The notes under the pieces were generated by a model. It did not search any database. It was not told the origin of the DNA and worked only from the letters and a program-made list of their open reading frames with translations. The translations under genes were made by a program, and so were the position numbers. DNA of 46,676 bases from Deltaproteobacteria bacterium (lineage in GTDB: Bacteria; Desulfobacterota; Dissulfuribacteria; Dissulfuribacterales; QOAL01): positions 1 to 46,676 of the forward strand of contig JAJRZR010000003.1 in assembly GCA_024275145.1 (NCBI GenBank). The letters are read 5' to 3'. This document shows, piece by piece, positions 1,643 through 27,871 of the stretch (positions are counted from its first letter, which is position 1; each line of letters starts with the position of its first letter).

Positions 1643-2089
1643 TCAGGGGACACGCGGCGGTCTGGATATCTGTATAGGATCCCCCTTTGATACCGTACCG
1701 CCGCGGATTACACGGCCAAATACCCCTTCCCTCGGCATTATACAATCCCCGGCCATCTGGTATATGGCACATTTGGTATGGCATTTCTTGCCTATCTGGG
1801 TTATCTCTACCACAACCGACTCTCCTATCCTTACGATACTTCCGACGGGGACCAAGGGCCATTCGATCCCTTCTGTGGCGATATTTTCGGCAAAGTCCCC
1901 GAAGCCTATGTCATAACCCTTGCTTTTTACCCTTTCTATGGCCTCGGATGCCAGGAAACTTACCTGTCTGTGCCACGCTCCCGCATGGGCATCCCCCTTT
2001 ATGCCATGGTCTTCCAGCAATTCAACCACGTCCACCTCATGTTTGCTCATTCCCTTCTTTTCGCTGACGGCAAGTGAAACCACCTTCAT
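1643..2089 (-). CDS. MOSC domain protein
   Basis: 148 residues from the ATG at 2089, which overlaps the nifU stop in an ATGA arrangement, so translation is probably coupled. A longer frame upstream is only nifU read out of frame. The MOSC signature region is clear: a DHGIKGDAHAG segment, the WHRQVS motif, GDFAENI, ITQIGKKCHTKCAIY, and GDCIMPREGVFGRVI near the end. MOSC domains are found in molybdenum-cofactor sulfurases and related proteins and are thought to carry or transfer sulfur, often through cysteine. Here the protein is a stand-alone domain ending an Fe-S/sulfur-transfer operon. A role in sulfur relay or cofactor maturation is inference. Confidence 0.88.
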   Translation of the reverse strand: MKVVSLAVSEKKGMSKHEVDVVELLEDHGIKGDAHAGAWHRQVSFLASEAIERVKSKGYDIGFGDFAENIATEGIEWPLVPVGSIVRIGESVVVEITQIGKKCHTKCAIYQMAGDCIMPREGVFGRVIRGGTVSKGDPIQISRPPRVP

Positions 2090-2583
2090 TTTTCCTGGAG
2101 CCCCTTTCCGCACCCCATGCAGAAGTTTGCAGTTATAGGGTTTTTCATCCCACAGTTTCCGCATATCTTGTGACGTTTTGGACGCCTTGGTTTCTTTGCC
2201 TCTGTCACAGGTTTTCCGGAGACACTGGCCTCGTAGTTTTTAATGGCCTCAAGGAGGGCCTCTGCCCCCAGATTGGAGCAGTGCATCTTTTCCTTGGGCA
2301 ATCCACCAAGGGCCTCTGCCACCGCCTTTTTCGTAAGGGCCTTTGCCTCGGCGATGGATTTTCCCTTTACCATGTCGGTAACCTGGCTTGAGACCGCTAT
2401 CGCGGCCACGCAGCCAAAGGTTTGATACTTTATATCTTCTATAATACCGTCTTTTACCTTTATATAAAAGGTCATCATGTCTCCACAGACAGGATTCCCT
2501 ACCTCACCTATGCCATCCGCGTTTTCGATTACGCCCACGTTGTGCGGACTGGCAAAGTGTTCCATTACCTTTTCTGTATACAT
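2086..2583 (-). CDS. nifU: NifU/IscU-type Fe-S scaffold with C-terminal zinc ribbon
   Basis: 165 residues. The N-terminal part is a complete IscU-like scaffold with the three cluster-building cysteines at about 33 (GNPVCGD), 58 (FGCVAA) and 102 (KMHCSNLG), and the conserved aspartate after the first cysteine. After a basic linker, residues 141-158 form a CxxC...CxxC zinc ribbon (CGNC and CMGC), replacing the ferredoxin and Nfu domains of classical NifU. An AGGAG-type binding site lies just before the ATG at 2583. The scaffold would receive sulfur and iron and pass the cluster to apoproteins in the cytoplasm. It follows the IscR-like gene and overlaps the MOSC gene. Confidence 0.93.
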   Translation of the reverse strand: MYTEKVMEHFASPHNVGVIENADGIGEVGNPVCGDMMTFYIKVKDGIIEDIKYQTFGCVAAIAVSSQVTDMVKGKSIAEAKALTKKAVAEALGGLPKEKMHCSNLGAEALLEAIKNYEASVSGKPVTEAKKPRRPKRHKICGNCGMKNPITANFCMGCGKGLQEK

Positions 2584-2603: not shown

Positions 2604-3026
2604 TTAATTCGTCTGGTTGTTTTGTTGTTTTCGGGCTAGATCGGCCAGGGTTATGGCCGAAAGCTGTTTCTTTATGGTCTTGGTGACCATGCTCCAGACG
2701 TCCCGCGTAGGGCAGATCTCACTCCTGTCGCACCACTGCGGATTTGTCACACATGGTGTCACCCCATCTTCGCCTTCGAGGGCCGCCACGATATCCCATA
2801 CCGTGATCTCGGCAGGGGCCCTTGCGAGCAGGTGCCCGCCCCTTGGCCCCCGGATACTCTTTATGAAGCCCGCCCGTTTAAGTGGAATGATCAACTGTTC
2901 CAGGTATTTTACAGACAGGTTTTCCTTTCTTGCTATCTCTCCTATCTGGAGGGGCCCCTTGTTGAAGTGGATGGCAAGTTCGACCATCATTCTGGTTCCG
3001 TATCTGCTCCGGGTAGTGATTTTCAT
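2604..3026 (-). CDS. iscR: Rrf2-family regulator, IscR-like
   Basis: 140 residues. It has an N-terminal winged helix (KITTRSRYGTRMMVELA at the start, SVKYLEQLI recognition region, IRGPRGGHLLAR wing), then three cysteines at 92, 99 and 105, as in the [2Fe-2S]-binding loop of IscR. In the family, the apo or holo form changes DNA binding so that Fe-S status controls the isc operon. The gene starts two bases after the nifS-like stop and lies inside the operon it presumably controls. A palindrome at 4521-4537 in the upstream divergent promoter is a candidate operator. IscR identity rather than another Rrf2 member is inferred from context and the cysteine triad. Confidence 0.88.
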   Translation of the reverse strand: MKITTRSRYGTRMMVELAIHFNKGPLQIGEIARKENLSVKYLEQLIIPLKRAGFIKSIRGPRGGHLLARAPAEITVWDIVAALEGEDGVTPCVTNPQWCDRSEICPTRDVWSMVTKTIKKQLSAITLADLARKQQNNQTN

Positions 3027-3028
3027 GA

Positions 3029-4228
3029 TTAAGCCATGTTTGCTACTGGGGCACCGTTTTTCCAGATAGGGGACATCGCCCTGAGCCTTTCCACTACGGT
3101 TGGCAGATGTTTCATCACGTGATCTATATCATCGAGGGTATTGGTTTCCTCAAGGCTGAAAACCACTGATCCCTGGGCAAGGGCAGCGGGTATCCCAAGG
3201 GCAACCAGCACAGGGGATGTCTTTAGTGCCTTCGATGCACATGCAGAGCCGGTGTTTACGTAGATTCCATTTCGACTCAGCATGAATATCAATGCCTCGC
3301 CTTCTATTGCCTCTATGCAGAAGCTGGCGTGCCCTGGCAGTCGTCTTTCACGATGGCCTGTAAGGTAGGCGTGGGGTATCTTTTCAAGTACGTTGGCGAT
3401 CAAGGTGTCCCGGAGCTGCGTGAGGTGTGCAGCCCTTTTCTTCATGGACGATTTTGCCAATTCCGCTGCCTTCCCGAGTCCGACGATGCCTGGCACGTTT
3501 TCCGTGCCGCCCCTTCGTCCCCTTTCCTGTATACCGCCATGGATCAGTGGCATTAACCGGGTATTCTTCCGGAAATACAGGGCGCCGATGCCCTTGGGAG
3601 CCCCAAGTGGAGGGCCGGAAAGGCTCAAAAGATCCACGTCCATCTCATGCACGTCTATCTCGACACTGCCTATCGTGGCCACCGCGTCGGTGTGAAAAGG
3701 CACTCCGTGTTCGCGGCATACGGTGGCAAGCTCCCTTATCGGTTCAATGGTGCCTACTTCGTTATTGCCATGCATAATGGATACAAGGGCCGTGTCCTGG
3801 TCCAGTGTCTTTTTGAGCCTTTCAGGGTCCACCAGCCCGTATTTGTCTACCGGCAGGAAGGTTACTTCATAGTCCAGCCTTTCAAAAAACCTGGCTGAAT
3901 TCAGAACGGAGTGATGTTCTATGGCCGATACAATGATCCTTTTTGCCTTTTTGAACCGGGAAAAGATCGTTCCCTTGATGGCAAGGTTGTTGGCCTCTGC
4001 ACCAGATGAGGTAAAGATGATCTCTTCCGGGTCTGCCCCAATGAGTTCGGCTACCTTGGCCCGTTGTTCCTCCACCACCCTCTTGACCTGGAAGCCCAGA
4101 TCATACACGGTGGAGGGGTTGGCAAAATCACGGTCGAAATATGGTAACATGGCCTTGAGTACCGGCCCTTTTACAGGGGTGGCAGCGGCATGATCCATAT
4201 ACGCTATTTTTTTCTGGGAATCTTTCAT
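3029..4228 (-). CDS. NifS/IscS-like cysteine desulfurase homologue lacking the PLP lysine
   Basis: 399 residues, full length for the class V aminotransferase fold. The N-terminus (YMDHAAATPV), IEHHSV histidine motif (His about 105), GNNEVGT and the catalytic-loop cysteine (TGSACASK, Cys330) are kept. The lysine motif, usually SxSAHKxxGPKG, reads SLSGPPLGAPKG, so both the His and the Schiff-base Lys (position 207) are prolines. The partner glutamine of the DAVQ motif is Ala (DAVATIG, residue 184). The phosphate-cradle GAT is changed (SSGAEANN), and GGGQE is GGIQE. The gene is otherwise intact and overlaps the tusA-like stop by four bases (ATGA). An Archaeoglobus fulgidus IscS is known to lack the PLP lysine and to bind IscU. 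A similar PLP-independent or regulatory role is inference here. Confidence 0.92.
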   Translation of the reverse strand: MKDSQKKIAYMDHAAATPVKGPVLKAMLPYFDRDFANPSTVYDLGFQVKRVVEEQRAKVAELIGADPEEIIFTSSGAEANNLAIKGTIFSRFKKAKRIIVSAIEHHSVLNSARFFERLDYEVTFLPVDKYGLVDPERLKKTLDQDTALVSIMHGNNEVGTIEPIRELATVCREHGVPFHTDAVATIGSVEIDVHEMDVDLLSLSGPPLGAPKGIGALYFRKNTRLMPLIHGGIQERGRRGGTENVPGIVGLGKAAELAKSSMKKRAAHLTQLRDTLIANVLEKIPHAYLTGHRERRLPGHASFCIEAIEGEALIFMLSRNGIYVNTGSACASKALKTSPVLVALGIPAALAQGSVVFSLEETNTLDDIDHVMKHLPTVVERLRAMSPIWKNGAPVANMA

Positions 4229-4473
4229 TTTACCTTCCTTATATAGAGCTTGTAGCAGTCATTGTCTTCCTTGATCCCGATGAACTCCTGCCCGGATTTT
4301 GCACACCATGCGGGGATATCCTCGAGCGCCCCGTCATAATCGGTAAGTATCTCTAGCACCTGTCCCCTCTTGAGTCCTTCTAGTCTCTCTCCAGGTTCGA
4401 GGAGATGGATAGGACACATGCGGAATACCAGGTCGAGCGTGTCGTCCGCCTTTTGATTTTCTATAAATTTCAT
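4225..4473 (-). CDS. TusA/SirA-like sulfur carrier
   Basis: 82 residues, the length of TusA. The N-terminal active cysteine is Cys20 in the motif FRMCPIHLLEP. Classical TusA has CPxP; here it is CPxH, a subfamily variant. The second half carries DIPAWC (Cys57), typical of the fold, and a third cysteine at 73. TusA-family proteins accept persulfide sulfur from a desulfurase and hand it on for tRNA thiolation or cofactor synthesis. This is the first gene of the operon; a GGGAG binding site precedes its ATG, and it overlaps the nifS-like gene. If the NifS partner cannot desulfurate cysteine by itself, this carrier is a candidate source or acceptor of the sulfur. That is inference. Confidence 0.85.
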   Translation of the reverse strand: MKFIENQKADDTLDLVFRMCPIHLLEPGERLEGLKRGQVLEILTDYDGALEDIPAWCAKSGQEFIGIKEDNDCYKLYIRKVK

Positions 4474-4590
4474 GTTGATAGCTCCCGATTTTTTTAAAAT
4501 TAAATTTTACTCTTTTAATCTATACTAATTAAGTATATATTATGACGCATACAGATCGTGTCAAGAAAAAAATGCAGGAGACAAGCTACC
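4474..4590. promoter_or_regulatory. Divergent promoter region, Fe-S operon versus met/cys operon
   Basis: A 117-base A/T-rich spacer between the two divergent operons. It contains several TATAAT-like stretches in both directions and the palindrome described separately. The plus-strand gene has an AGGAG site at about 4576-4580, ten bases before the ATG at 4591. Confidence 0.6.
4521..4537. promoter_or_regulatory. Candidate Rrf2/IscR-type operator palindrome
   Basis: TATACT-N5-AGTATA, perfect six-base arms. It lies midway in the divergent promoter, 48 bases upstream of the tusA-like start and 54 bases before the metY start. The outer ATACT/AGTAT halves resemble the ends of known Rrf2-family sites. 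Binding by the IscR-like protein of this operon is inferred from position and symmetry only. Confidence 0.45.
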
Positions 4591-5847
4591 ATGTCCATGA
4601 AAAAGAACTGGAATTTTTACACAAGGGTCATACATGAGGCCCAAAGTCCAATGGATTGGCAAGGTTCGACCCTTCCGCCTATCTTTCAAACAGCCTCCCA
4701 TCTTCATTCCACGGCTCAAAATCTCAGTGAGACCTTTGCCGGGAAAACCGGGGACCACATCTACATGAGGCTCACCAATCCTACGAACAATGTTCTTGAA
4801 AGGAAACTGGCAGGACTGGAAGGCGGCAGGGGAGCAGTGGTGATGGCATCGGGTATGGCCGCCATAACCAATGCGTGCATGGCCCTCCTGAGGGCAGGGG
4901 ATGAATTCGTGGCAGGAAATTCACTATTCATGTCCACCTATGTACTTTTTGCGAATGTTTTCAAAAAATACGGAATAACCGTCCACTTCGTCGAATCCAC
5001 TGACCTTGGTGCCATAGGGGAGGCCATCAACGGCAGGACGAGATTCGTATACGTGGAAACCATAGGGAACCCCAAGATGGACGTCCCGGACATAGAGGCC
5101 GTTGCCGCTGTAGCCCATGAGCACGGGCTGCCCCTTCTCGTGGACAATACGCTGGCAACCCCGTATCTGTGCCGCCCCTTGGAACTCGGTGCGGATGTGG
5201 TGATCCATTCCACCACCAAGTATCTTAGCGGGCATGGGGATGCGACCGGTGGTGTGGTGATAGACAGGGGAGATTTTGACTGGTCGGGTGGTCGCTTCCC
5301 TGATCTTGCCCCATTTGTCGAGCGAAAGGAGGATCTGGCCTATCTCGACAAGGTTTGGAGGGAGCACCACATAAACTTCGGAACTACCCAGGCCCCTCTA
5401 CATTCATATCTCACCATACTGGGCCTGGACACCCTTGCTATCCGGATGGAACGTCACCTGGCAAATGCATGGAAGGTGGCCGCCTTCCTGAAAGATCAAC
5501 CAGAGGTCAGGTGGATAAATTACCCTGGCATGGCCAACCACCCCTGCAGGGAGACAGCCGACAAGCAGTTTTCAGGAAGGGGCTTCGGTGCGGTACTGAC
5601 GTTTGGCCTAAGGGACCAGGATGCCTGCTTCCGTTTTATCGACGGTCTGGAGATGATCTATCACCTGGCGAACCTGGGGGATTGCAAGAGCCTGGTCATC
5701 CACCCCTACTCCTCCCAGTACCTTTCCTTTACGGAGGAGACAAGGAGTGCGCTTTCGATCACCCCGGATCTCATAAGGTTGTCCGTGGGGATTGAGGCCG
5801 CAGAGGATATATGCGCAGATATAAGGCAGGCCCTGGACAGGTTGTAG
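4591..5847 (+). CDS. metY: O-acetylhomoserine sulfhydrylase
   Basis: 418 residues from the ATG at 4591, chosen because AGGAG lies ten bases upstream. A GTG at 4558 in frame lacks a site. This is a PLP enzyme of the Cys/Met metabolism family, with the internal aldimine lysine at about residue 210 in HSTTKYLSGHGDATGG and the conserved SGMAAI, ETIGNP and DNTLATPY blocks. With metX directly downstream, the natural reaction is O-acetylhomoserine plus sulfide to homocysteine. Related enzymes (cystathionine gamma-synthase, methionine gamma-lyase) share the fold, so the substrate assignment rests on gene context. It is the first gene of a five-gene sulfide assimilation operon. Confidence 0.88.
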   Translation: MSMKKNWNFYTRVIHEAQSPMDWQGSTLPPIFQTASHLHSTAQNLSETFAGKTGDHIYMRLTNPTNNVLERKLAGLEGGRGAVVMASGMAAITNACMALLRAGDEFVAGNSLFMSTYVLFANVFKKYGITVHFVESTDLGAIGEAINGRTRFVYVETIGNPKMDVPDIEAVAAVAHEHGLPLLVDNTLATPYLCRPLELGADVVIHSTTKYLSGHGDATGGVVIDRGDFDWSGGRFPDLAPFVERKEDLAYLDKVWREHHINFGTTQAPLHSYLTILGLDTLAIRMERHLANAWKVAAFLKDQPEVRWINYPGMANHPCRETADKQFSGRGFGAVLTFGLRDQDACFRFIDGLEMIYHLANLGDCKSLVIHPYSSQYLSFTEETRSALSITPDLIRLSVGIEAAEDICADIRQALDRL

Positions 5848-5890
5848 GGCATATTCGAAACGGTGTGGTAAGAGGGGGATATCCATCGGT

Positions 5891-7012
5891 ATGATCGTGG
5901 AAAAACAATTCTTTACCTTTGCCAGGAACAAGCCCATGGTCCTTGAATGTGGAGCCAGGTTGGGGCCTGTGACCATTGCCTATGAGACCCTGGGAAGCCT
6001 CGATGAAGAGAGGAAGAATGCCATACTGGTGCTCCATGCCCTTTCCGGCGATTCACATATGGCAGGCCGTTATTCTGAAAGGGACCCCAAACCTGGCTGG
6101 TGGGACATCATGATCGGTCCTGGAAAGGCCATTGACACGGATAGGTACTTCGTCGTCTGTTCGAACATCATAGGGGGTTGCATGGGAAGCACTGGTCCAT
6201 CGTCCACGAATCCGTCCACCAGGCGGCCCTACGGCCTTGATTTTCCTGTGGTGACCATAGGGGACATGGTAAGGGCCCAGAAGGCCCTGATCAAGCATCT
6301 TGGAATCGAGAGGCTTTTTGCGGTGATAGGCGGTTCCCTTGGGGGAATGCAGGTCCTCGAGTGGAGTCTCAGGTATCCGGGTATGGTACGTTCGGCCATT
6401 CCCCTCGCCACCACTGCCAGGCACTCTGCCCTTGCCATCGCCTTCAATGAGGTTGCCCGTCAGGCCATAATGGCGGACCCAAACTGGCAGGGAGGCAACT
6501 ACTACGGAGGTGCCAGACCGAACCTGGGCCTTGCGGTGGCTAGGATGATAGGGCATATCACCTATCTTTCAGACGAGGCCATGCGAAGGAAATTCGGACG
6601 CCGCCTCCAGGACAGGACGGATCTTTCCTTCAAGCTCGACGTGGATTTCCAGGTGGAGAGCTATCTGAGGTACCAGGGAAAGAAATTCGTGGACCGTTTC
6701 GACGCCAATTCCTTCCTCTATATTACAAAGGCCGCAGACTATTTCGACGTAGAGGAACAGCATGGCGGCGGCTCCATTGTCAAGGCATTTTCCAAGGCAA
6801 GGGCGAAGTTCCTGGTCGTCTCTTTCACCTCTGACTGGCTCTATCCTACCTATCAATCCAGAGAACTGGTCCAGGCCATGAAGAAGAACGGTTTAGACGT
6901 AAGTTTTTGCGAGATAGAGGCAGATTGGGGGCACGATGCCTTTCTATTACCTAATGAACGTCTCTCTTCCCTTATAAAAGGCTTTCTGGAGTGTGTAGGC
7001 CGTGGACTCTGA
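5891..7012 (+). CDS. metX: Homoserine O-acetyltransferase
   Basis: 373 residues, alpha/beta hydrolase fold. The nucleophile serine is about residue 149 in GGSLGGMQVLEW. The catalytic acid and base lie in the C-terminal FTSDWLYPTYQS and EADWGHDAFLL segments. The conserved GGCMGSTGPSS block near residue 96 is typical of MetX. It activates homoserine with acetyl-CoA to give the substrate of the preceding sulfhydrylase. Acetyl rather than succinyl preference is assumed from family. A GAGGGGGAT stretch precedes the ATG, and the 3' end overlaps metW by eleven bases. Confidence 0.92.
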   Translation: MIVEKQFFTFARNKPMVLECGARLGPVTIAYETLGSLDEERKNAILVLHALSGDSHMAGRYSERDPKPGWWDIMIGPGKAIDTDRYFVVCSNIIGGCMGSTGPSSTNPSTRRPYGLDFPVVTIGDMVRAQKALIKHLGIERLFAVIGGSLGGMQVLEWSLRYPGMVRSAIPLATTARHSALAIAFNEVARQAIMADPNWQGGNYYGGARPNLGLAVARMIGHITYLSDEAMRRKFGRRLQDRTDLSFKLDVDFQVESYLRYQGKKFVDRFDANSFLYITKAADYFDVEEQHGGGSIVKAFSKARAKFLVVSFTSDWLYPTYQSRELVQAMKKNGLDVSFCEIEADWGHDAFLLPNERLSSLIKGFLECVGRGL

Positions 7013-7649
7013 GAAAAGGGACATAAGGTTCGACCTGAAGATCATTGCATCCTGGATAGAACCTGGTTCCAGGGTACTGGACCTGGGATGCGGTGAGGGG
7101 ACCTTGCTCCATTACCTGAGGGAGCACAGGCAGGTCGTGGGCACTGGCATAGAACAGCACGAGGCAGAGGTGGCTGCATGTATAGCAAAGGGGCTTACCG
7201 TGCTTCAGGGGGACCTGAACCAGGAGGTGCTCGATTACCCCGACAGGGCATTCGACTACGTCATCCTGAGCCAGACCCTCCAGCAGGTTTACAGGCCCCG
7301 TGCCTTGATAACCTCTTTGATGCGTATCGGCTCCAGGGTGATCGTCAGCTTCCCGAACTTCAGCCACTGGTCCATAAGGCTCCAAGTGCTGATAAAGGGG
7401 ATGGCTCCAAAGAACCAGCAACTCCCATACGATTGGTACAATAGTCCGAATATCAGGGTCATTACACTGAAGGATTTTCGCAGGTTCGTTGGGGATTTGG
7501 GATTCAAGGTCATAGATGAGGCCCCGATCAATACCCAGAACCAGGACAGGTACGGGTCCATTGTCCGTTTCTTGCCGAATCTCAGGGCAACTTACGGGAT
7601 CTTCATGATAGGAAGGGGCGATGAGACAAAAAAATGCAAGGAAGGGTGA
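7002..7649 (+). CDS. metW: MetW-like methyltransferase-fold protein
   Basis: 215 residues from a GTG start inside the end of metX. It has a class I methyltransferase fold with the nucleotide-binding glycine motif LDLGCGEGTLL near residue 25 and the later DYVILSQTLQQV and VIVSFPNFSHW blocks that mark MetW. MetX-MetW pairs are common in Proteobacteria, and MetW is known to be needed for full MetX activity in some of them. Overlap with metX supports a shared role here. Confidence 0.9.
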   Translation: MDSEKRDIRFDLKIIASWIEPGSRVLDLGCGEGTLLHYLREHRQVVGTGIEQHEAEVAACIAKGLTVLQGDLNQEVLDYPDRAFDYVILSQTLQQVYRPRALITSLMRIGSRVIVSFPNFSHWSIRLQVLIKGMAPKNQQLPYDWYNSPNIRVITLKDFRRFVGDLGFKVIDEAPINTQNQDRYGSIVRFLPNLRATYGIFMIGRGDETKKCKEG

Positions 7650-7650
7650 G

Positions 7651-8664
7651 ATGAAACCAGAAGACGCTTACAACCCAGGTATGGATAGGCGAGGCCGGGT
7701 AAACTGGTACAGTGAGCTTCCACCGGTCGTGGAAAGGCTTGCGGCTGCATGGGAGAACAAGGGTTACTGCGATCAGGCAGGGGCCATGCCGATCCCCTCC
7801 CACGAATCCGTAGTGCGGATCATACATCACATAAGGCGTATACTCTTTCCGGGCTATTTCACCCAAACCAATATCAACACGGATAACCTGGAATACTACA
7901 TAGGACAGGAGGTAAATATCCTGTTCGAGGATCTTTCCACCCAGATTCAACTGGCCCTCAGGTACGATGCCTTGAACAACAATGCCTGCTGCGACTGCCC
8001 GGCCGAAGGGGGTGAAGAGCGGGCTGCGGCCTTCATAAAAAAATTACCAGGGATAAAGGGCGTGCTGGTCACCGATATAGAGGCTGCGATGGAAGGAGAC
8101 CCGGCTGCTAAGAGCCGGAGCGAGGTTATCTTTAGCTATCCAGGCCTTCTTGCCATCACGGTCTACCGGGTGGCAAACGAATTACACAAGCTGGGGGTCC
8201 CCTTCATACCCAGGATCATGACGGAGTATGCCCACAGCCTTACGGGCATCGATATCCACCCGGCAGCCACCATTGGAGACAGCTTTTTCATAGACCACGG
8301 CACAGGGGTAGTGGTTGGAGAAACCACGGTGATCGGCAGCCGGGTCCGTCTGTACCAGGGCGTGACCATAGGTGCTCTTTCACTTCCAAGGGATGCGGGC
8401 GAGCGCCTCCGGAACAAGAAACGCCACCCTACTATAGAAGATGACGTGATCATTTATTCCAATGCCACAATCCTTGGGGGGGAGACAGTGATAGGCGCAA
8501 GATCGGTCATAGGGGGCAATATCTGGCTTACGGAAAGTGTTCCGCCAGACACGAGGGTCATCCTGAAGAGGCCGGAACTTGTGTATTCGGACAAGGGAAG
8601 GCGGCGCCTTCAATGTGGCCAAACCAGACGATACAAGGGGAAGAGATATGAATGTACTTCTTAG
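7651..8664 (+). CDS. cysE: Serine O-acetyltransferase, EpsC/CysE type
   Basis: 337 residues from the ATG at 7651, one base after the metW stop. GGAAGGGTGAG serves as a binding site, whereas the ATG at 7621 in the same frame has none. The C-terminal half is a left-handed beta-helix of hexapeptide repeats, with [20 protein letters not shown], the [10 protein letters not shown] block and [12 protein letters not shown]. It makes O-acetylserine for the next gene. The long N-terminal domain is typical of the EpsC-like group rather than short enterobacterial CysE. It overlaps cysK by 17 bases. Confidence 0.92.
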
Positions 8665-9574
8665 CGATGTCACCATGGCGGTGGGAGGCACGCCCTTGGC
8701 CAGGCTGAACCACCTGGCCAAGGGGCTTCCAGCCGAGGTATATGCGAAACTTGAATTCCAGAACCCACTTTCCAGTGTCAAGGATCGCATAGGCCTTGCC
8801 ATGATCGAGGCCGCGGAGGCACAGGGGAAGCTGAGGAACGGGATGACAGTCATAGAGCCTACCAGCGGCAATACCGGGATTGCGCTTGCGTTCGTGTGTG
8901 CGGCAAAGGGTTACCGGCTGGTGCTTACCATGCCGGATACCATGAGCCTCGAAAGGCGTGCCCTGCTCAGGCATCTTGGCGCGGAATTGGTGCTCACCCC
9001 TGGTACCCAGGGGATGAAAGGTGCCATCGAAAGGGCAAGGGAGCTCCTGGACGAGATCGGTGACGCCTTCATGCCGAATCAGTTTGCCAACCCGGCAAAC
9101 CCGGAGGTACACAGAAGGACCACGGCGGAAGAGATCTGGCAGGATAGCGATGGCAGGGTGGACATCCTGGTGGCAGGGGTTGGGACCGGTGGGACCATCA
9201 CCGGGGTCTCGGACGTGATCAAGTCCAGGAAGCCCTCCTTCAGGGCCATAGCCGTGGAACCGGCGGATTCACCCGTGCTCTCCGGAGGTGCCCCTGGGCC
9301 GCACAAGATCCAAGGCATAGGTGCGGGTTTCATCCCTGACGTGTTGAGGGTGGACCTCATAGATGAGGTCATGACGGTTACCAATGAACAGGCCATGGAT
9401 ACCGCCAGGAGGTTGGCGAAAGAGGAAGGACTGGTTTGTGGCATATCTTCAGGAGCCGCTGCCTGGGCGGCCTTGAACGTGGCGTCCAGGGCGGAAAATG
9501 CAGGGAAGATGGTAGTATTCATCTTGCCGGACAGTGCGGAACGTTACCTTAGCACGGACCTTGTGCTCAAGTAG
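8648..9574 (+). CDS. cysK: Cysteine synthase (O-acetylserine sulfhydrylase)
   Basis: 308 residues from the ATG at 8648, which follows AAGGGGAAGAG. A frame opening at 8579 is inside cysE and lacks a site. The PLP lysine is about Lys45 in [11 protein letters not shown]. The [10 protein letters not shown] substrate loop, [10 protein letters not shown] phosphate cup and GISSGAA C-terminal motif are all present. It forms cysteine from O-acetylserine and sulfide. CysK versus CysM cannot be settled by eye. Last gene of the operon, 24 bases from the convergent signalling genes. Confidence 0.94.
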
Positions 9575-15578: not shown

Positions 15579-18299
15579 CTACTGGCGGCCTGCCCTGAGC
15601 AGGGAACGTATCTTTTTTTCTGACTCAACGACAAGGTAGGTCGCAATGCCTGCGGCCATGATCCTTACCCAGGAATCAGACCCTATGGCGGTGCTTTGGA
15701 ACAGACGGTTCATAATTGGCAGATAAGTATATAGAATCTGCAATGTCAACATGGCAAGTACGCCGCCAAGGACCCAAATGTTACTTAGGATGCCAAGTTG
15801 GAATACGGATTTTTCCAACGACCTGCAGTTGAAGAGATAGAAGAGTTCCATGATGACAAAGACGTTGACAGCTACCGTCCGTGCCTGTTCCATGGATGCC
15901 CCTGCCGTCAGCTCCCATTTAAACAGACCATATGCGCCGAATAGGAGCATTGCGCCTACCAGAAAGATTCTGCCAATGAGTTCTCCGGTCAAGATGGGGG
16001 TCTTTGGGTCTCGTGGAGGGCGTTTCATGATGCCGGGCTCTTTGGGCTCGAAGGCCAGCATCAAGCCAAGGAAGCCCGCAGTGGTCATGTTGATCCACAG
16101 GATCTGAACAGGCAGGATAGGAAGCGCTGCTCCAAGGAGTACGGCCACCAGGATGACCAACCCCTCTCCGATGTTAGTGGGCAGGGTCCACACGATAAAT
16201 TTCGTCAGGTTGTCGAAGACGCCTCTGCCTTCCTCGACAGCCGCTGTTATGGAGCTGAAGTTGTCATCGGTGAGCACCATGTCGGCGGCCTCCTTGGCTA
16301 CGTCTGTACCGGTTATCCCCATGGCCACACCTATGTCTGCCTGTTTGAGGGCAGGGGCATCGTTCACACCGTCCCCGGTCATGGCCACGACATGGCCCCG
16401 CGCCTGTAGCGCCCTTACTAGCCGTATCTTTTCTTCAGGGGTTGTTCGTGCGAATACATTCGTGTCCTCGGCGACTCGAACCAGGTCCTTGTCAGACACA
16501 TTGGCCAGGTCCTTGCCAGTCAGTACCTTGACAGCCCTGTCCCCCTTGCCACGATCTTCATAAAGGCCGATCTGACCCGCGATGGCGGCAGCGGTGGCGG
16601 GATGATCCCCGGTAATCATCTTTACCTTTATGCCCGCCCGCTGGCAGGTATTGACTGCTTTAACTGCCTCTGCCCTTGGAGGGTCGATCATGCCTTGAAG
16701 GCCAAGAAATGAAAGATCATCCGCAACGTCATCGTGGGTTATCTCCCTGATATCGGCAGGCAATTCCTTCCTGGCGAAGGCAAGCACCCTCATCCCTCTT
16801 GCCGCCATGTGTTCCACGTCCCTGTATATCCTGTCTGCGTCCAATCTGGTAAGGTTGCCATTTGCATCCATCGCCTGGCTACATTTCTGGACGATTTGTT
16901 CCACCGCCCCTTTTACATAGACCAGACGCGGATAGCCTGGCCCGGCGTCGTGAAGCGTGGCCATGTAGCGGTGCTTTGATTCGAAGGGGATGGCGTCCAG
17001 TCGTGGATACCTTTTTTCCATCTCCTTCCTGTCCAGCCCTCCCTTGGCCGCCACCGCCAAGAGGGCCCCTTCGGTGGGGTCTCCTTGGATCTGCCACATG
17101 CCATCCTTTTCCAGGATCAGGCTGTCGTTGCACAGGAGCCCTGCAATCAGGCATTCGTTAAGGGCGGCTGTGCCCCCGTCTGGCTCACCATCCAGCCTGA
17201 CTATCTGTCCAAGAGGGGCGTAACCGCTGCCGCTTACCTCGTAATGGGTATAACCGGCCACGATGGCCTGGACGGTCATCTGGTTTTCTGTAAGCGTTCC
17301 GGTCTTGTCTGAGCATATGATGGTTGTACTGCCCAGGGTCTCTACTGCGGGCAGCTTACGAATAACGGCCCGGCGTCTCGCCATCCTGGAGACACCTATG
17401 GCCAGGGTTATGGTTACCGCTGCCGGCAGGCCCTCTGGGATCGCTCCAACGGCCAGCGCGACCGCGGCCATGAACATATCAAAGGGGCTCTGCCCCCTTG
17501 CCAGGCCAACTAGTACAGTAGCCCCTGCCAACGCCAGGATGGCGTACAGCAAGAGCCGGCTGAATTGTTCAATCTTACGTGTCAGTGGGGTTTCAAGCGT
17601 CTGGGCCGATGAGATCAGACTGGATATCCGGCCCACCTCTGTCCGGTCACCAGTGGCGATTACGATCCCGGTTGCCTGGCCATAGGTGACCATCGAAGAG
17701 CCATAGGTCATGTCCGTCCTTTCAGCAAGGGGCGTGTTTTCGTCGACAGGATCGATTCCCTTTTCTACCGGCACGGATTCACCGGTAAGTGCCGATTCGT
17801 CCACCTGTAAGTCCTTACACCTGACAAGACGCAGATCCGCTGGTACCTTGTCACCGGCCTGGAGCAGCACTATATCCCCCACTACCAGGTCAGTCGAAGG
17901 TATTCGTCTCTTTTCGCCATCCCTTACGACCGTCGCCTCTGCCAGCATGGTATCCGCCAGGGCGGCCAAGGCATTTTCCGCCTTGGATTCCTGGATGAAG
18001 CCGATGACGGCGTTGACTATCACGACGCCAAAGATCACGCCAGAGTCTACCCATTCCTGCAGGCCCGCCGTAACCAGGCCCGCCGCAATCAGTATGTATA
18101 TGAGTGGCTGATGGAACTGGAGCAGGAAACGAAGGAGCGGCCCCTTTCCCTTTTTGGCCGTCAGTATGTTGGCACCAAACCGTTTCAGGCGACCCTGGGC
18201 GTCCCCTGTATTGAGCCCTCTTTGAGGATCGGTCTCCAGGAAGTGGGCCACCTCTTCCACCGGCAGGGAATGCCATTTCTTGTCATGTAGTAGTTCCAT
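15579..18299 (-). CDS. P2-type cation-transporting ATPase
   Basis: 906 residues, full length. It has the cation ATPase N-terminal domain, actuator TGES (172-175), phosphorylated Asp331 in CSDKTGTLT, and the hinge motif MTGDGVNDAPALKQADIGVAMG. In M4 the PEGLP motif typical of Ca2+/Na+ type pumps is present, and in M5 the Asn and Glu ligands are kept (PTNIGEG). In M6 the usual NxxTD motif reads NMTTAG, so the calcium-coordinating Asp is replaced by Ala. The transported ion is therefore uncertain. It starts 25 bases after the amphi-Trp gene and is probably in the same transcript. Confidence 0.93.
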   Translation of the reverse strand: MELLHDKKWHSLPVEEVAHFLETDPQRGLNTGDAQGRLKRFGANILTAKKGKGPLLRFLLQFHQPLIYILIAAGLVTAGLQEWVDSGVIFGVVIVNAVIGFIQESKAENALAALADTMLAEATVVRDGEKRRIPSTDLVVGDIVLLQAGDKVPADLRLVRCKDLQVDESALTGESVPVEKGIDPVDENTPLAERTDMTYGSSMVTYGQATGIVIATGDRTEVGRISSLISSAQTLETPLTRKIEQFSRLLLYAILALAGATVLVGLARGQSPFDMFMAAVALAVGAIPEGLPAAVTITLAIGVSRMARRRAVIRKLPAVETLGSTTIICSDKTGTLTENQMTVQAIVAGYTHYEVSGSGYAPLGQIVRLDGEPDGGTAALNECLIAGLLCNDSLILEKDGMWQIQGDPTEGALLAVAAKGGLDRKEMEKRYPRLDAIPFESKHRYMATLHDAGPGYPRLVYVKGAVEQIVQKCSQAMDANGNLTRLDADRIYRDVEHMAARGMRVLAFARKELPADIREITHDDVADDLSFLGLQGMIDPPRAEAVKAVNTCQRAGIKVKMITGDHPATAAAIAGQIGLYEDRGKGDRAVKVLTGKDLANVSDKDLVRVAEDTNVFARTTPEEKIRLVRALQARGHVVAMTGDGVNDAPALKQADIGVAMGITGTDVAKEAADMVLTDDNFSSITAAVEEGRGVFDNLTKFIVWTLPTNIGEGLVILVAVLLGAALPILPVQILWINMTTAGFLGLMLAFEPKEPGIMKRPPRDPKTPILTGELIGRIFLVGAMLLFGAYGLFKWELTAGASMEQARTVAVNVFVIMELFYLFNCRSLEKSVFQLGILSNIWVLGGVLAMLTLQILYTYLPIMNRLFQSTAIGSDSWVRIMAAGIATYLVVESEKKIRSLLRAGRQ

Positions 18300-25292: not shown

Positions 25293-27842
25293 TCACCTGG
25301 ACACCCTTTGATTGTCTTCTGGCCCCTTGCTGGTCAATTTTACATGTGGGGTAATTGCCTGCTTTACCAATTTCACATAGGCGTGGTGATGGCGTGTTTT
25401 TATCTCGATTCGTTTGAATACATAGACCTTGACTATGTCCGTCACGAAGGCAGAAACAATGGAATATGCCCATATCAGGGCAACCTCCGGCCAAGTGATT
25501 GGGGTTATGAGTCCAAAACCATAGGCGGCAAGTATTGTCCCGGCTGCCTTGGTGATAACCGCCGACCATATCATGATAGGGGCAGGGAAGGGTCGTTTCC
25601 AAAAATGTTCCTTTGTCCTGGCCACAAACAGGACCAGGTGCCCGGCAACCGCCATCTTCAGGAATACGTAGGTCTGAATCTGCGGTATGGTGAGGTGCAA
25701 TAGATCCATTGCAATCAACAACATTCCAAAACTGCCACTAAGCCCCACTATACCCATGGATGTTGCCACGGTTATGACCTGGCTCATTTTCCATCTGGCG
25801 GGTTGGGGGTCTAGCCCGGTATGATCGTAGGCGATTGTCATGATGGGAAGATCGTTCAAGAACGCCAGGAGGATGATCATTATGGCGGTTATGGGATAGA
25901 AATTGAAGAATATCATGGCAAGGACCACGAAGACCATTATCCGTATGGTCTCGGAAATCCTGTAGATGGCGTAGCTATTCATCCTCTCGAAGATGCGCCT
26001 GGCCTCTTCTACCGCCCTGATAATGACCGACAGCCCTGGTGCGGTAAGAACCAGATCGGCTGCTGCCCGTGCCGCGTCGGTTGCACCCGATACCGCAATC
26101 CCCACGTTCGCTTGTTTGAGCGCCGGGGCGTCGTTGACCCCGTCCCCTGTCATGCCAACTATGTGGTTCCTACTCTGGAGCGCCTTTACTATGGCAAACT
26201 TGTGCTCAGGGAACACCTGGGCGAACCCGTCTGCCTTTTCTATCAGTTCCTCGGCCTCGGCAATCATGATTGTCTTGCCTTTGCCCTCCTTCAGGAAGGA
26301 GTCGGCAGGAAGGATGTTGGGACGAAGTCCCAGTTTGCGGGCTATCTGTTTGGCAATGGCCACGTTGTCTCCGGTAACCATCTTGACCTCTATGCCATAT
26401 TGTTGCGCCCGGCGGATGGTTTCAGCGGAATCCTCACGTGGAGGATCAAACAAGGGTAGAATCCCTAGGAATTCCCAGGTGTTTGCGTCCCTGGAGATAG
26501 CGACTCCAAGGGTGCGGTAGCCTTCTTCGGCAAATTGCTCTATTGCCTTTTGGGCCTTTGCCTGGGTGCTTTCATCCGGATGGCAAAGGGCCAGGATTAC
26601 CTGGGGTGCACCCTTGGTCACCTTTATGATTTTGCCATCAGGGGTATTGACCTCTGCCTCGGTCCTCTTGTGTACCGGGTCGAAGGGCATGAAATGGGCC
26701 TGCTTGTATCCCTTGAGTGCGTCCCTTTTCTTGAGGCCCTTGAGGATAGCGTTGTCAATGGCATCTGCATCCTCTTCCTTTGAGGCCAATGCAGCGTAGA
26801 ATATCAACTCATCCCTGTCTTTTGCCTTGAAGACCAGGGGATCGCCAAGGGTGAGTTGATTCTGGGTGAGCGTTCCCGTTTTGTCTGAGCACAGGATGTC
26901 CATACCTGCCATCTCCTCGATGGATTCAAGGCGTGAGACAATGGCCTTCATCTTGGAAAGGGCAAGGGCACCTACGGCCATCGTCACCGAAAGCACCGCT
27001 GGCATGGCCACGGGGATGGATGCAACCGTAAGGATCAGGGCAAACTGGATCAATTCAAGCCAGGGTGCACCACGGTGGAGTTGGAAAAGTATCAATGCAG
27101 CCACGAGAACCAGGCAGACATAGATGAGATAGTCGCCAATCGTGAGGACTGCCTTCTGGAAGTGTGAGACGTTCTGGGCGCTGCTCACCAGTTCGGCAGT
27201 CTTCCCAAAATAGGTGTTTGCACCGGTGGCGGTGACCACTGCCACCATCTCCCCCTGTTTGACAATAGAACCTGAATAGGCCCCATCGCCCTTTTCCTTG
27301 CTTACTGGGAGCGATTCACCAGTGAGGGCCGATTGGTCGATACTTAGATAGTCACCATCGATCAGCACCACGTCTGCCGGTACTATGTCGCCAAGCCGCA
27401 GCCGTATTATATCCCCTGGCACCAGTGTCTTGGAGTCAATCTCCTGCCACTTTCCATCCCTTAGGGCCCTGGCCTTCAGTGCAAGTTTTTTCTTGAGCGC
27501 CTCTATGGCATTGCCTGCCTTGTATTCCTGCCAGAAACCAACTACGGCGTTGAAGATCAGGAGGGCGCTGATAATGGCAAAGTCAGGCAAATGCCGCACT
27601 ATGGCAGAAAGGATTGCAGCCACCTCTATCATCCAGGGGATGGGTCCCCAGAAGTAACTGAGGAACTTGAGAAACGGGTTCACCTTCTTTTCTTCCAATG
27701 CATTCGGGCCATACTGGGTAAGCCGCTTGGTTGCTTCGCCGGACGAAAGGCCATCGGTGCTTGTTTTGAGACGGGCAAATACCTCCGCGATGGATTCCTT
27801 GTGTTTTCCTTGCGGGGCATTATGATCAGAAGTATTAGCCAT
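25293..27842 (-). CDS. P3A-type H+-transporting ATPase
   Basis: 849 residues from the ATG at 27842. GGAGG lies eight bases before it, within the codons that follow the alternative ATG at 27857. Features: TGES actuator motif, phosphorylated Asp about 320 (CSDKTGTLT), TGDGVNDAPALKQANVGIAVSGATDAARAAADLVLT, and M6 AFLNDLPIMTIAYD with the Asp that serves as proton acceptor in plant and fungal plasma-membrane pumps. Length and short loops match bacterial and archaeal PMA-type pumps. It exports protons at the cost of ATP, useful for pH control or for energising the membrane during fermentation. Divergent from the DedA gene with only 29 bases between the chosen starts. Confidence 0.94.
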   Translation of the reverse strand: MANTSDHNAPQGKHKESIAEVFARLKTSTDGLSSGEATKRLTQYGPNALEEKKVNPFLKFLSYFWGPIPWMIEVAAILSAIVRHLPDFAIISALLIFNAVVGFWQEYKAGNAIEALKKKLALKARALRDGKWQEIDSKTLVPGDIIRLRLGDIVPADVVLIDGDYLSIDQSALTGESLPVSKEKGDGAYSGSIVKQGEMVAVVTATGANTYFGKTAELVSSAQNVSHFQKAVLTIGDYLIYVCLVLVAALILFQLHRGAPWLELIQFALILTVASIPVAMPAVLSVTMAVGALALSKMKAIVSRLESIEEMAGMDILCSDKTGTLTQNQLTLGDPLVFKAKDRDELIFYAALASKEEDADAIDNAILKGLKKRDALKGYKQAHFMPFDPVHKRTEAEVNTPDGKIIKVTKGAPQVILALCHPDESTQAKAQKAIEQFAEEGYRTLGVAISRDANTWEFLGILPLFDPPREDSAETIRRAQQYGIEVKMVTGDNVAIAKQIARKLGLRPNILPADSFLKEGKGKTIMIAEAEELIEKADGFAQVFPEHKFAIVKALQSRNHIVGMTGDGVNDAPALKQANVGIAVSGATDAARAAADLVLTAPGLSVIIRAVEEARRIFERMNSYAIYRISETIRIMVFVVLAMIFFNFYPITAIMIILLAFLNDLPIMTIAYDHTGLDPQPARWKMSQVITVATSMGIVGLSGSFGMLLIAMDLLHLTIPQIQTYVFLKMAVAGHLVLFVARTKEHFWKRPFPAPIMIWSAVITKAAGTILAAYGFGLITPITWPEVALIWAYSIVSAFVTDIVKVYVFKRIEIKTRHHHAYVKLVKQAITPHVKLTSKGPEDNQRVSR

Positions 27843-27871
27843 TTTCGATTCCTCCATGATTGATATCTCTC

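Follow-up and report, generated by a model that had tools for sequence, protein, structure and literature searches.

The genome of a sulfate-reducing Deltaproteobacteria bacterium (Desulfobacterota; Dissulfuribacterales; QOAL01) encodes, together with a TusA-like protein and a NifU scaffold, a NifS-like protein that, judging from its residues, is very probably not a normal PLP desulfurase. Comparison across its homologues demonstrates, at the level of sequence, that the PLP chemistry was lost in a coordinated manner and the mobile-loop cysteine Cys330 retained, that the gene is under purifying selection, and that it is linked to those for TusA and NifU. The explanation that we favor, with some reservation, is that this protein acts as a non-desulfurase partner of NifU, in which Cys330 would relay persulfide or ligate a cluster and TusA or sulfide would be the source of sulfur. 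A lysine-less IscS is already known from Archaeoglobus fulgidus and has been reported for Methanosarcina acetivorans IscS1; what appears to be new is that a large family in bacteria has been kept under selection after a coordinated loss of its active site and has a TusA of its own. Our literature search, which covered open-licence papers and does not prove absence, turned up no account of a lysine-less NifS that occurs with TusA in bacteria. Throughout, the window is the whole stretch of DNA that was analyzed, 46,676 nt of contig JAJRZR010000003.1 (GCA_024275145.1).

Active-site changes in an intact gene

The NifS-like gene lies on the minus strand at 3029..4228 and reads as a 399-amino-acid frame with an ATG start and no internal stop, as a sequence-only reading of the window had described. 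Its product matches Pfam Aminotran_5 (aminotransferase class V) with 261 bits and scores 496.8 bits against the NCBIfam NifS model TIGR03402, below the equivalog cut-off of 530.75. Superposition of the AF2 model (mean pLDDT 93.4) and the A. fulgidus IscS structure 4HVK gives a TM of 0.97 and an rmsd of 1.2. Among the features that define class I desulfurases, the fold type I/aminotransferase class V architecture and a persulfide-forming loop cysteine (C330) are present, and the Schiff-base lysine, the partner glutamine Gln183, and the substrate arginine R354 are absent.

These assignments come from alignment with E. coli IscS (from MG1655) and A. fulgidus IscS2 (PDB 4EB5), in which the window's SLSGPPLGAPKG lies opposite SFSGHKIYGPKG of E. 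coli IscS. The Schiff-base motif, SGHKIYGPKG in E. coli, reads SGPPLGAPKG in the window protein (residues 204-213; 3590..3619, minus strand), and the Schiff-base lysine K206 is replaced by P207. Further changes, in E. coli numbering, are H205P, Q183A, T76A (GAT to SGA), and R354V. Loss of R354, which we take to be the substrate cysteine-carboxylate arginine of this enzyme class, was missing from the earlier list and makes the case for lost PLP chemistry stronger. Residues that are kept (E. coli numbering first) include C328 (C330; codon at 3239..3241, minus strand, equivalent to A. fulgidus C321), H104 (H105), D180 (Asp181), N155, and S203. The two alignments thus bear out the sequence-only reading in that both His and Lys of the motif have become Pro in GPPLGAPKG, that the partner Gln is Ala, and that GAT is altered, and they confirm, together with the AF2 superposition, that Cys330, His105, and the overall fold have been retained. 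The same reading had named Lys212 in the PLP site as the observation that would speak against it; K212 aligns with E. coli K211 of the GPKG motif, not with K206. This column holds K in 51 of 52 lysine-bearing homologues and R in the other one, and since lysine-bearing enzymes carry this residue too, K212 is an ordinary GPKG lysine rather than a stand-in for the Schiff-base lysine.

A selected family of lysine-less proteins

Homologues were collected from named MAGs, from relatives of the window, and from 395 Desulfobacterota genomes, giving 115 rows in total; because the rows were picked for their resemblance to the window protein, and a few of them are fragments or near-duplicates, the family counts do not measure prevalence in the phylum. 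K206 is absent from 63 of these rows and present in 52. The lysine-less rows have lost Q183 without exception (63/63) and R354 wherever the row covers it, and all 60 that cover the loop cysteine C328 have kept it, while Q183, R354, and C328 are all kept in 52/52 lysine-bearing rows. A separate genome (L009/G001) encodes a NifS-like protein that is 91% identical to the window protein at the amino acid level and reads the same SGPPLGAPKG, which answers the concern about a sequencing error. The dN/dS value for this pair of genes is 0.071, and values across ten family pairs, this one and nine others, range from 0.04 to 0.18. The lysine-less nifS is under purifying selection and is neither a dying gene nor an error; the earlier view that the PLP machinery was lost and the sulfur cysteine kept agrees with the family counts, in which the machinery is lost as a set, and with the dN/dS values, which place the cysteine and fold under strong selection.

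In a tree built with the active-site columns blanked, the bacterial lysine-less rows (n = 57) form a single clade with support of 98/94, and the window's own sub-clade, here called the core (n = 32), has support of 100/100. Multiple independent bacterial losses of the lysine were considered and are unneeded, as one change suffices on this tree. When A. fulgidus IscS2 is added, the best tree again contains one lysine-less clade, with support of only 60/91, and a single origin that includes the archaeal protein is found in 58% of bootstrap trees. By its sequence, A. fulgidus IscS2 is probably the sister of the bacterial clade. The comparison with this protein in the sequence-only reading was apt and, in the best tree, probably reflects true kinship; given the 60/91 support of the joint clade, a separate archaeal loss may nevertheless have occurred.

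Features fixed specifically in the core include C304, P339, and two lysines next to the Cys loop (SACASKALKTSPVL), K333 and K336. The core sub-clade comparison marks C304 (codon at 3317-3319 in the minus-strand gene) as a second cysteine fixed in all 32 core rows, a position at which lysine-bearing enzymes mostly have Ser. In one genome (G088), two distinct copies of a lysine-less NifS are present (L066, L128); TusA and NifU accompany one of them, and only NifU accompanies the other.

Operon partners and their linkage to nifS

The minus-strand genes run in the order TusA-like, NifS-like, Rrf2, NifU, MOSC. The TusA-like gene (4225..4473, minus strand) lies directly upstream of the nifS-like gene with a 4-base overlap and encodes 82 amino acids that match Pfam TusA with 58.7 bits (cut-off 28.6). 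Its sulfur-carrying Cys20, the equivalent of E. coli TusA C19 by alignment (codon at 4414..4416, minus strand), is conserved, and the protein departs from the norm in having CPIH in place of CPxP and Tyr in place of the buried Asp45. Across the clade, the TusA-like stretch LTDYDGALEDIPxWC is nearly invariant.

Downstream are an Rrf2-family regulator (IscR/CymR-like; 2604..3026, minus strand), which has three Cys where a cluster would bind, and the NifU scaffold (2086..2583, minus strand), whose C33, D35, C58, and C102 align with C37, D39, C63, and C106 of E. coli IscU. NifU also keeps the Lys of LPxxK, the counterpart of E. coli IscU K103; in E. coli, IscU with the charge-reversing change K103E no longer binds IscS (PMC2854127). 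The C-terminal four-Cys zinc-ribbon-like tail of NifU (CGNCG...CMGCG) occurs in some relatives and is absent from others. The last gene of the run encodes a MOSC-domain protein (1643..2164, minus strand), and a MOSC gene also stands by the module in four further loci (L009, L012, L014, and L023); molybdenum-cofactor sulfurases combine a NifS-like and a MOSC domain in one fused protein.

On the plus strand of the window, a divergent run at 4558-9574 encodes MetY, MetX, MetW, serine acetyltransferase, and cysteine synthase and forms a block for the assimilation of sulfide, and MetYXW genes lie just upstream of tusA in L012, L014, L017, L021, and L025. NadA (quinolinate synthase), itself a cluster enzyme, is encoded downstream of nifU in L012, L014, L017, L020, L021, L023, and L025. 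Genes of methionine and NAD metabolism also cluster with M. acetivorans iscSU2, which is lysine-bearing (PMC7585200). Two large genes elsewhere in the window (15579-18299 and 25293-27857) read like cation-transporting P-type ATPases.

The coupling of nifS to tusA-like, iscR-like, and nifU genes that the sequence-only reading noted in the window holds as described, and the tie to TusA and NifU extends far beyond this genome. A NifU gene is a neighbor in 53 of the 63 lysine-less loci, and a TusA gene in 44 of 63, compared with 0 of 52 lysine-bearing loci. No TusA neighbor is seen in about a third of the lysine-less loci, in some of them through the end of a contig or of the fetched stretch, and the A. 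fulgidus IscS2 locus presumably lacks one as well. CPxH-type TusA proteins, defined by an identity of 54% or more (the next matches in the same genomes reach 43% or less), were found in 19 of the 395 Desulfobacterota genomes, and all 19 directly adjoin a lysine-less nifS; the only genome with a core nifS that lacks a CPxH TusA (G230) has its nifS at a contig end. In the sister group, one locus (L036) has the gene order nifS-nifU-DsrE2-TusA with an ordinary CPxP TusA, and DsrE2 is present also in L038, L076, L077, and L083.

As the lysine-less group is one clade, the linkage of TusA to nifS represents two or three linked arrangements rather than dozens of independent events, and since there are few independent branches on which lysine loss goes together with this linkage, the association is not many-fold independent evidence. 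A phylogenetically independent comparison of lysine loss and TusA yielded one independent pair only and has no statistical power.

Sulfur metabolism in the rest of the genome

The genome, estimated to be 100% complete, contains one NifU_N gene, which is the one in the operon of the lysine-less nifS. One other NifS-type homologue, on contig C113, has the Lys, Gln, Arg, and Cys all present. From these sequences, the cell can probably split cysteine, and its only NifU is encoded with a NifS-like protein that probably cannot. It had been suggested that the lysine-less protein would save cysteine in a sulfide-rich cell; this idea is weakened by the apparently intact lysine-bearing homologue that a search of the genome for a canonical desulfurase brought up, while the sulfide-rich setting itself is plausible because the genome encodes DsrA. 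Contig C9 carries a SufC/SufB-like (SmsCB-like) gene pair, and a second, ordinary CPxP TusA is encoded on C27 by a membrane protein that we take, on reading its sequence, to be YeeE-like.

Possible roles of the NifS-like protein

Our results lead us to suggest that normal PLP-dependent splitting of cysteine would have been lost with the Schiff-base Lys, partner Gln, and substrate Arg, and that the mobile-loop Cys330 would be presented to the NifU assembly site by a protein that docks NifU as IscS docks IscU. At this site, Cys330 could be a persulfide relay point, a transient cluster ligand, or both, and the source of the sulfur would be the dedicated TusA-like protein (TusA plus DsrE2 in the sister group) or free sulfide, not a cysteine held by the NifS-like protein. 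In the simplest reading, Cys330 would ligate the cluster as A. fulgidus Cys321 does, and in the window's sub-clade it may first take sulfane sulfur from TusA.

We are more tentative about the full relay from TusA through Cys330 to NifU, which is a plausible suggestion from these sequences and one that we would not count on. Geometry for a cysteine exchange between TusA and IscS exists, since the two cysteines approach to about 4 angstroms in the E. coli IscS-TusA structure (PMC2854127). Against a relay, the direction from TusA to the NifS-like protein is one that we infer, whereas sulfur in E. coli flows from IscS to TusA, which competes with IscU for IscS (PMC11302665). In addition, the TusA-like protein does not conserve R27 and R31, with which E. 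coli TusA docks, and has replaced the CPxP Pro and Asp45; docking through the E. coli interface residues was considered and is unsupported. With equal caution, we propose that Desulfobacterota might possess a dedicated Fe-S line without its own desulfurase step, in which a specialized TusA (or DsrE2 plus TusA) would pass sulfane sulfur from inorganic sulfur to the loop Cys of a lysine-less NifS and on to NifU, the family having arisen once in bacteria, probably with the archaeal lysine-less IscS, and having since been kept under selection.

It is unlikely, though worth serious consideration, that the protein is a scaffold and ligand only, docking NifU while Cys330 binds the [2Fe-2S] cluster as it forms and gives it shape or protection, with free sulfide as the source and TusA serving elsewhere, for example in regulation or another sulfur branch. 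The crystal structure of the A. fulgidus (IscS-IscU)2 complex offers a precedent in a lysine-less relative (PMC7585200, PMC9769115), many lysine-less relatives have no TusA neighbor, and SMS-type assembly with sulfide has been demonstrated elsewhere (PMC12192291), with SmsCB-like genes present in this genome. However, a role of this kind leaves unexplained why the special TusA stands always and only by lysine-less nifS in 19/19 genomes, and why the sister group has its DsrE2-TusA pair.

A flow in the reverse direction, in which the lysine-less protein would take persulfide from the C113 homologue or from NifU-linked chemistry and load TusA for thiolation rather than for clusters, seems improbable to us. 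It would follow the direction established in E. coli (PMC2854127, PMC11302665), and a lysine-bearing homologue exists to supply it, but the usual partner of the lysine-less protein is NifU, NadA is encoded nearby in several loci, and the C27 locus already provides an ordinary TusA. Even less probable is an unusual desulfurase whose active site has a different residue in the role of the lysine or is completed in trans by a partner protein. The PLP contacts Asp181, His105, and the Ser203 equivalent are kept, and the lysine-less 4EB5 structure is drawn with PLP (PMC9769115), so that PLP may, by analogy, be bound non-covalently to the NifS-like protein. A replacement lysine was nevertheless rejected on the alignment, where no near-site Lys is newly conserved and the core-specific K333 and K336 sit on the Cys loop; moreover, none of the lysine-less rows that cover the substrate Arg has kept it, and the A. 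fulgidus IscS shows no activity (PMC7585200). A decaying pseudogene or a sequencing error, to which the lost catalytic residues might point, is ruled out by the intact frame, a dN/dS of 0.07, the motif repeated in an independent genome, the 63 lysine-less homologues, and the strict operon linkage.

The favored reading, a non-desulfurase partner of NifU, would bear on the sulfur source of cluster assembly more generally, as the lysine-less family suggests that a cell can build Fe-S clusters from sulfur that was not cut from cysteine by the NifS-like protein. So far, the inactive A. fulgidus IscS has passed for an oddity of archaea; should a whole family in bacteria have abandoned the desulfurase step and retained the sulfur cysteine, the NifU partner, and a private TusA, cysteine desulfurase would not be the fixed sulfur entry of ISC/NIF-type assembly, at least not in anaerobes that produce sulfide. 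These genes would probably still be labeled cysteine desulfurases by automated annotation. The NifS-like, TusA-like, and NifU proteins offer a defined three-protein set for the question of sulfide versus cysteine as the sulfur source.

Comparison with known systems

The closest parallel is A. fulgidus IscS2 (PDB 4EB5, 4EB7, and 4HVK; D199K mutant 4R5F), in which the PLP lysine is also replaced (motif ISSNDIYGPKG). As in the window protein, the equivalents of H205, Q183, and R354 are lost, the loop Cys is kept, and the fold is the same, and its IscU partner, like the window NifU, has three Cys plus Asp; the window module thus shares lysine loss, loop cysteine, and partner type with the archaeal pair. 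The [2Fe-2S] cluster on IscU in the A. fulgidus complex has, as one of its ligands, loop Cys321 from the inactive IscS (PMC9769115, PMC7585200). The two proteins are 43-45% identical and differ in that IscS2 keeps T76 and the GGGQE motif, whereas the window protein has lost the T76 equivalent, carries its own Cys loop (SACASKALKTSPVL), and has a dedicated CPxH TusA directly upstream. M. acetivorans IscS1 (MA0808), an archaeal protein encoded with IscU1, is likewise reported to have no catalytic lysine, and a mode of action like that of A. fulgidus IscS has been suggested for it (PMC7585200); its likeness to the window protein is drawn from this published description rather than from an alignment.

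In gene content, the window resembles the minimal nifS-nifU operon of the MIS type, to which the Helicobacter pylori NifS/NifU pair, renamed MisS/MisU (PMC10653786), belongs, a class described with an active cysteine desulfurase, whereas the window protein lacks the desulfurase residues. E. coli TusA belongs to the same Pfam family as the window TusA-like protein, which keeps the equivalents of Cys19, Asp51, and Cys56 and differs in its CPxH motif, its Tyr for Asp45, and its missing docking arginines. The sulfur relay through DsrE and TusA has its likeness in the DsrE2-TusA pair of the sister-group operon. Finally, the SMS system (SmsCB) of Methanocaldococcus jannaschii assembles Fe-S clusters from sulfide without a cysteine desulfurase (PMC12192291), and the window genome also encodes a SufC/SufB-like pair; the SMS system differs from the window module in using another scaffold family and no IscS fold.
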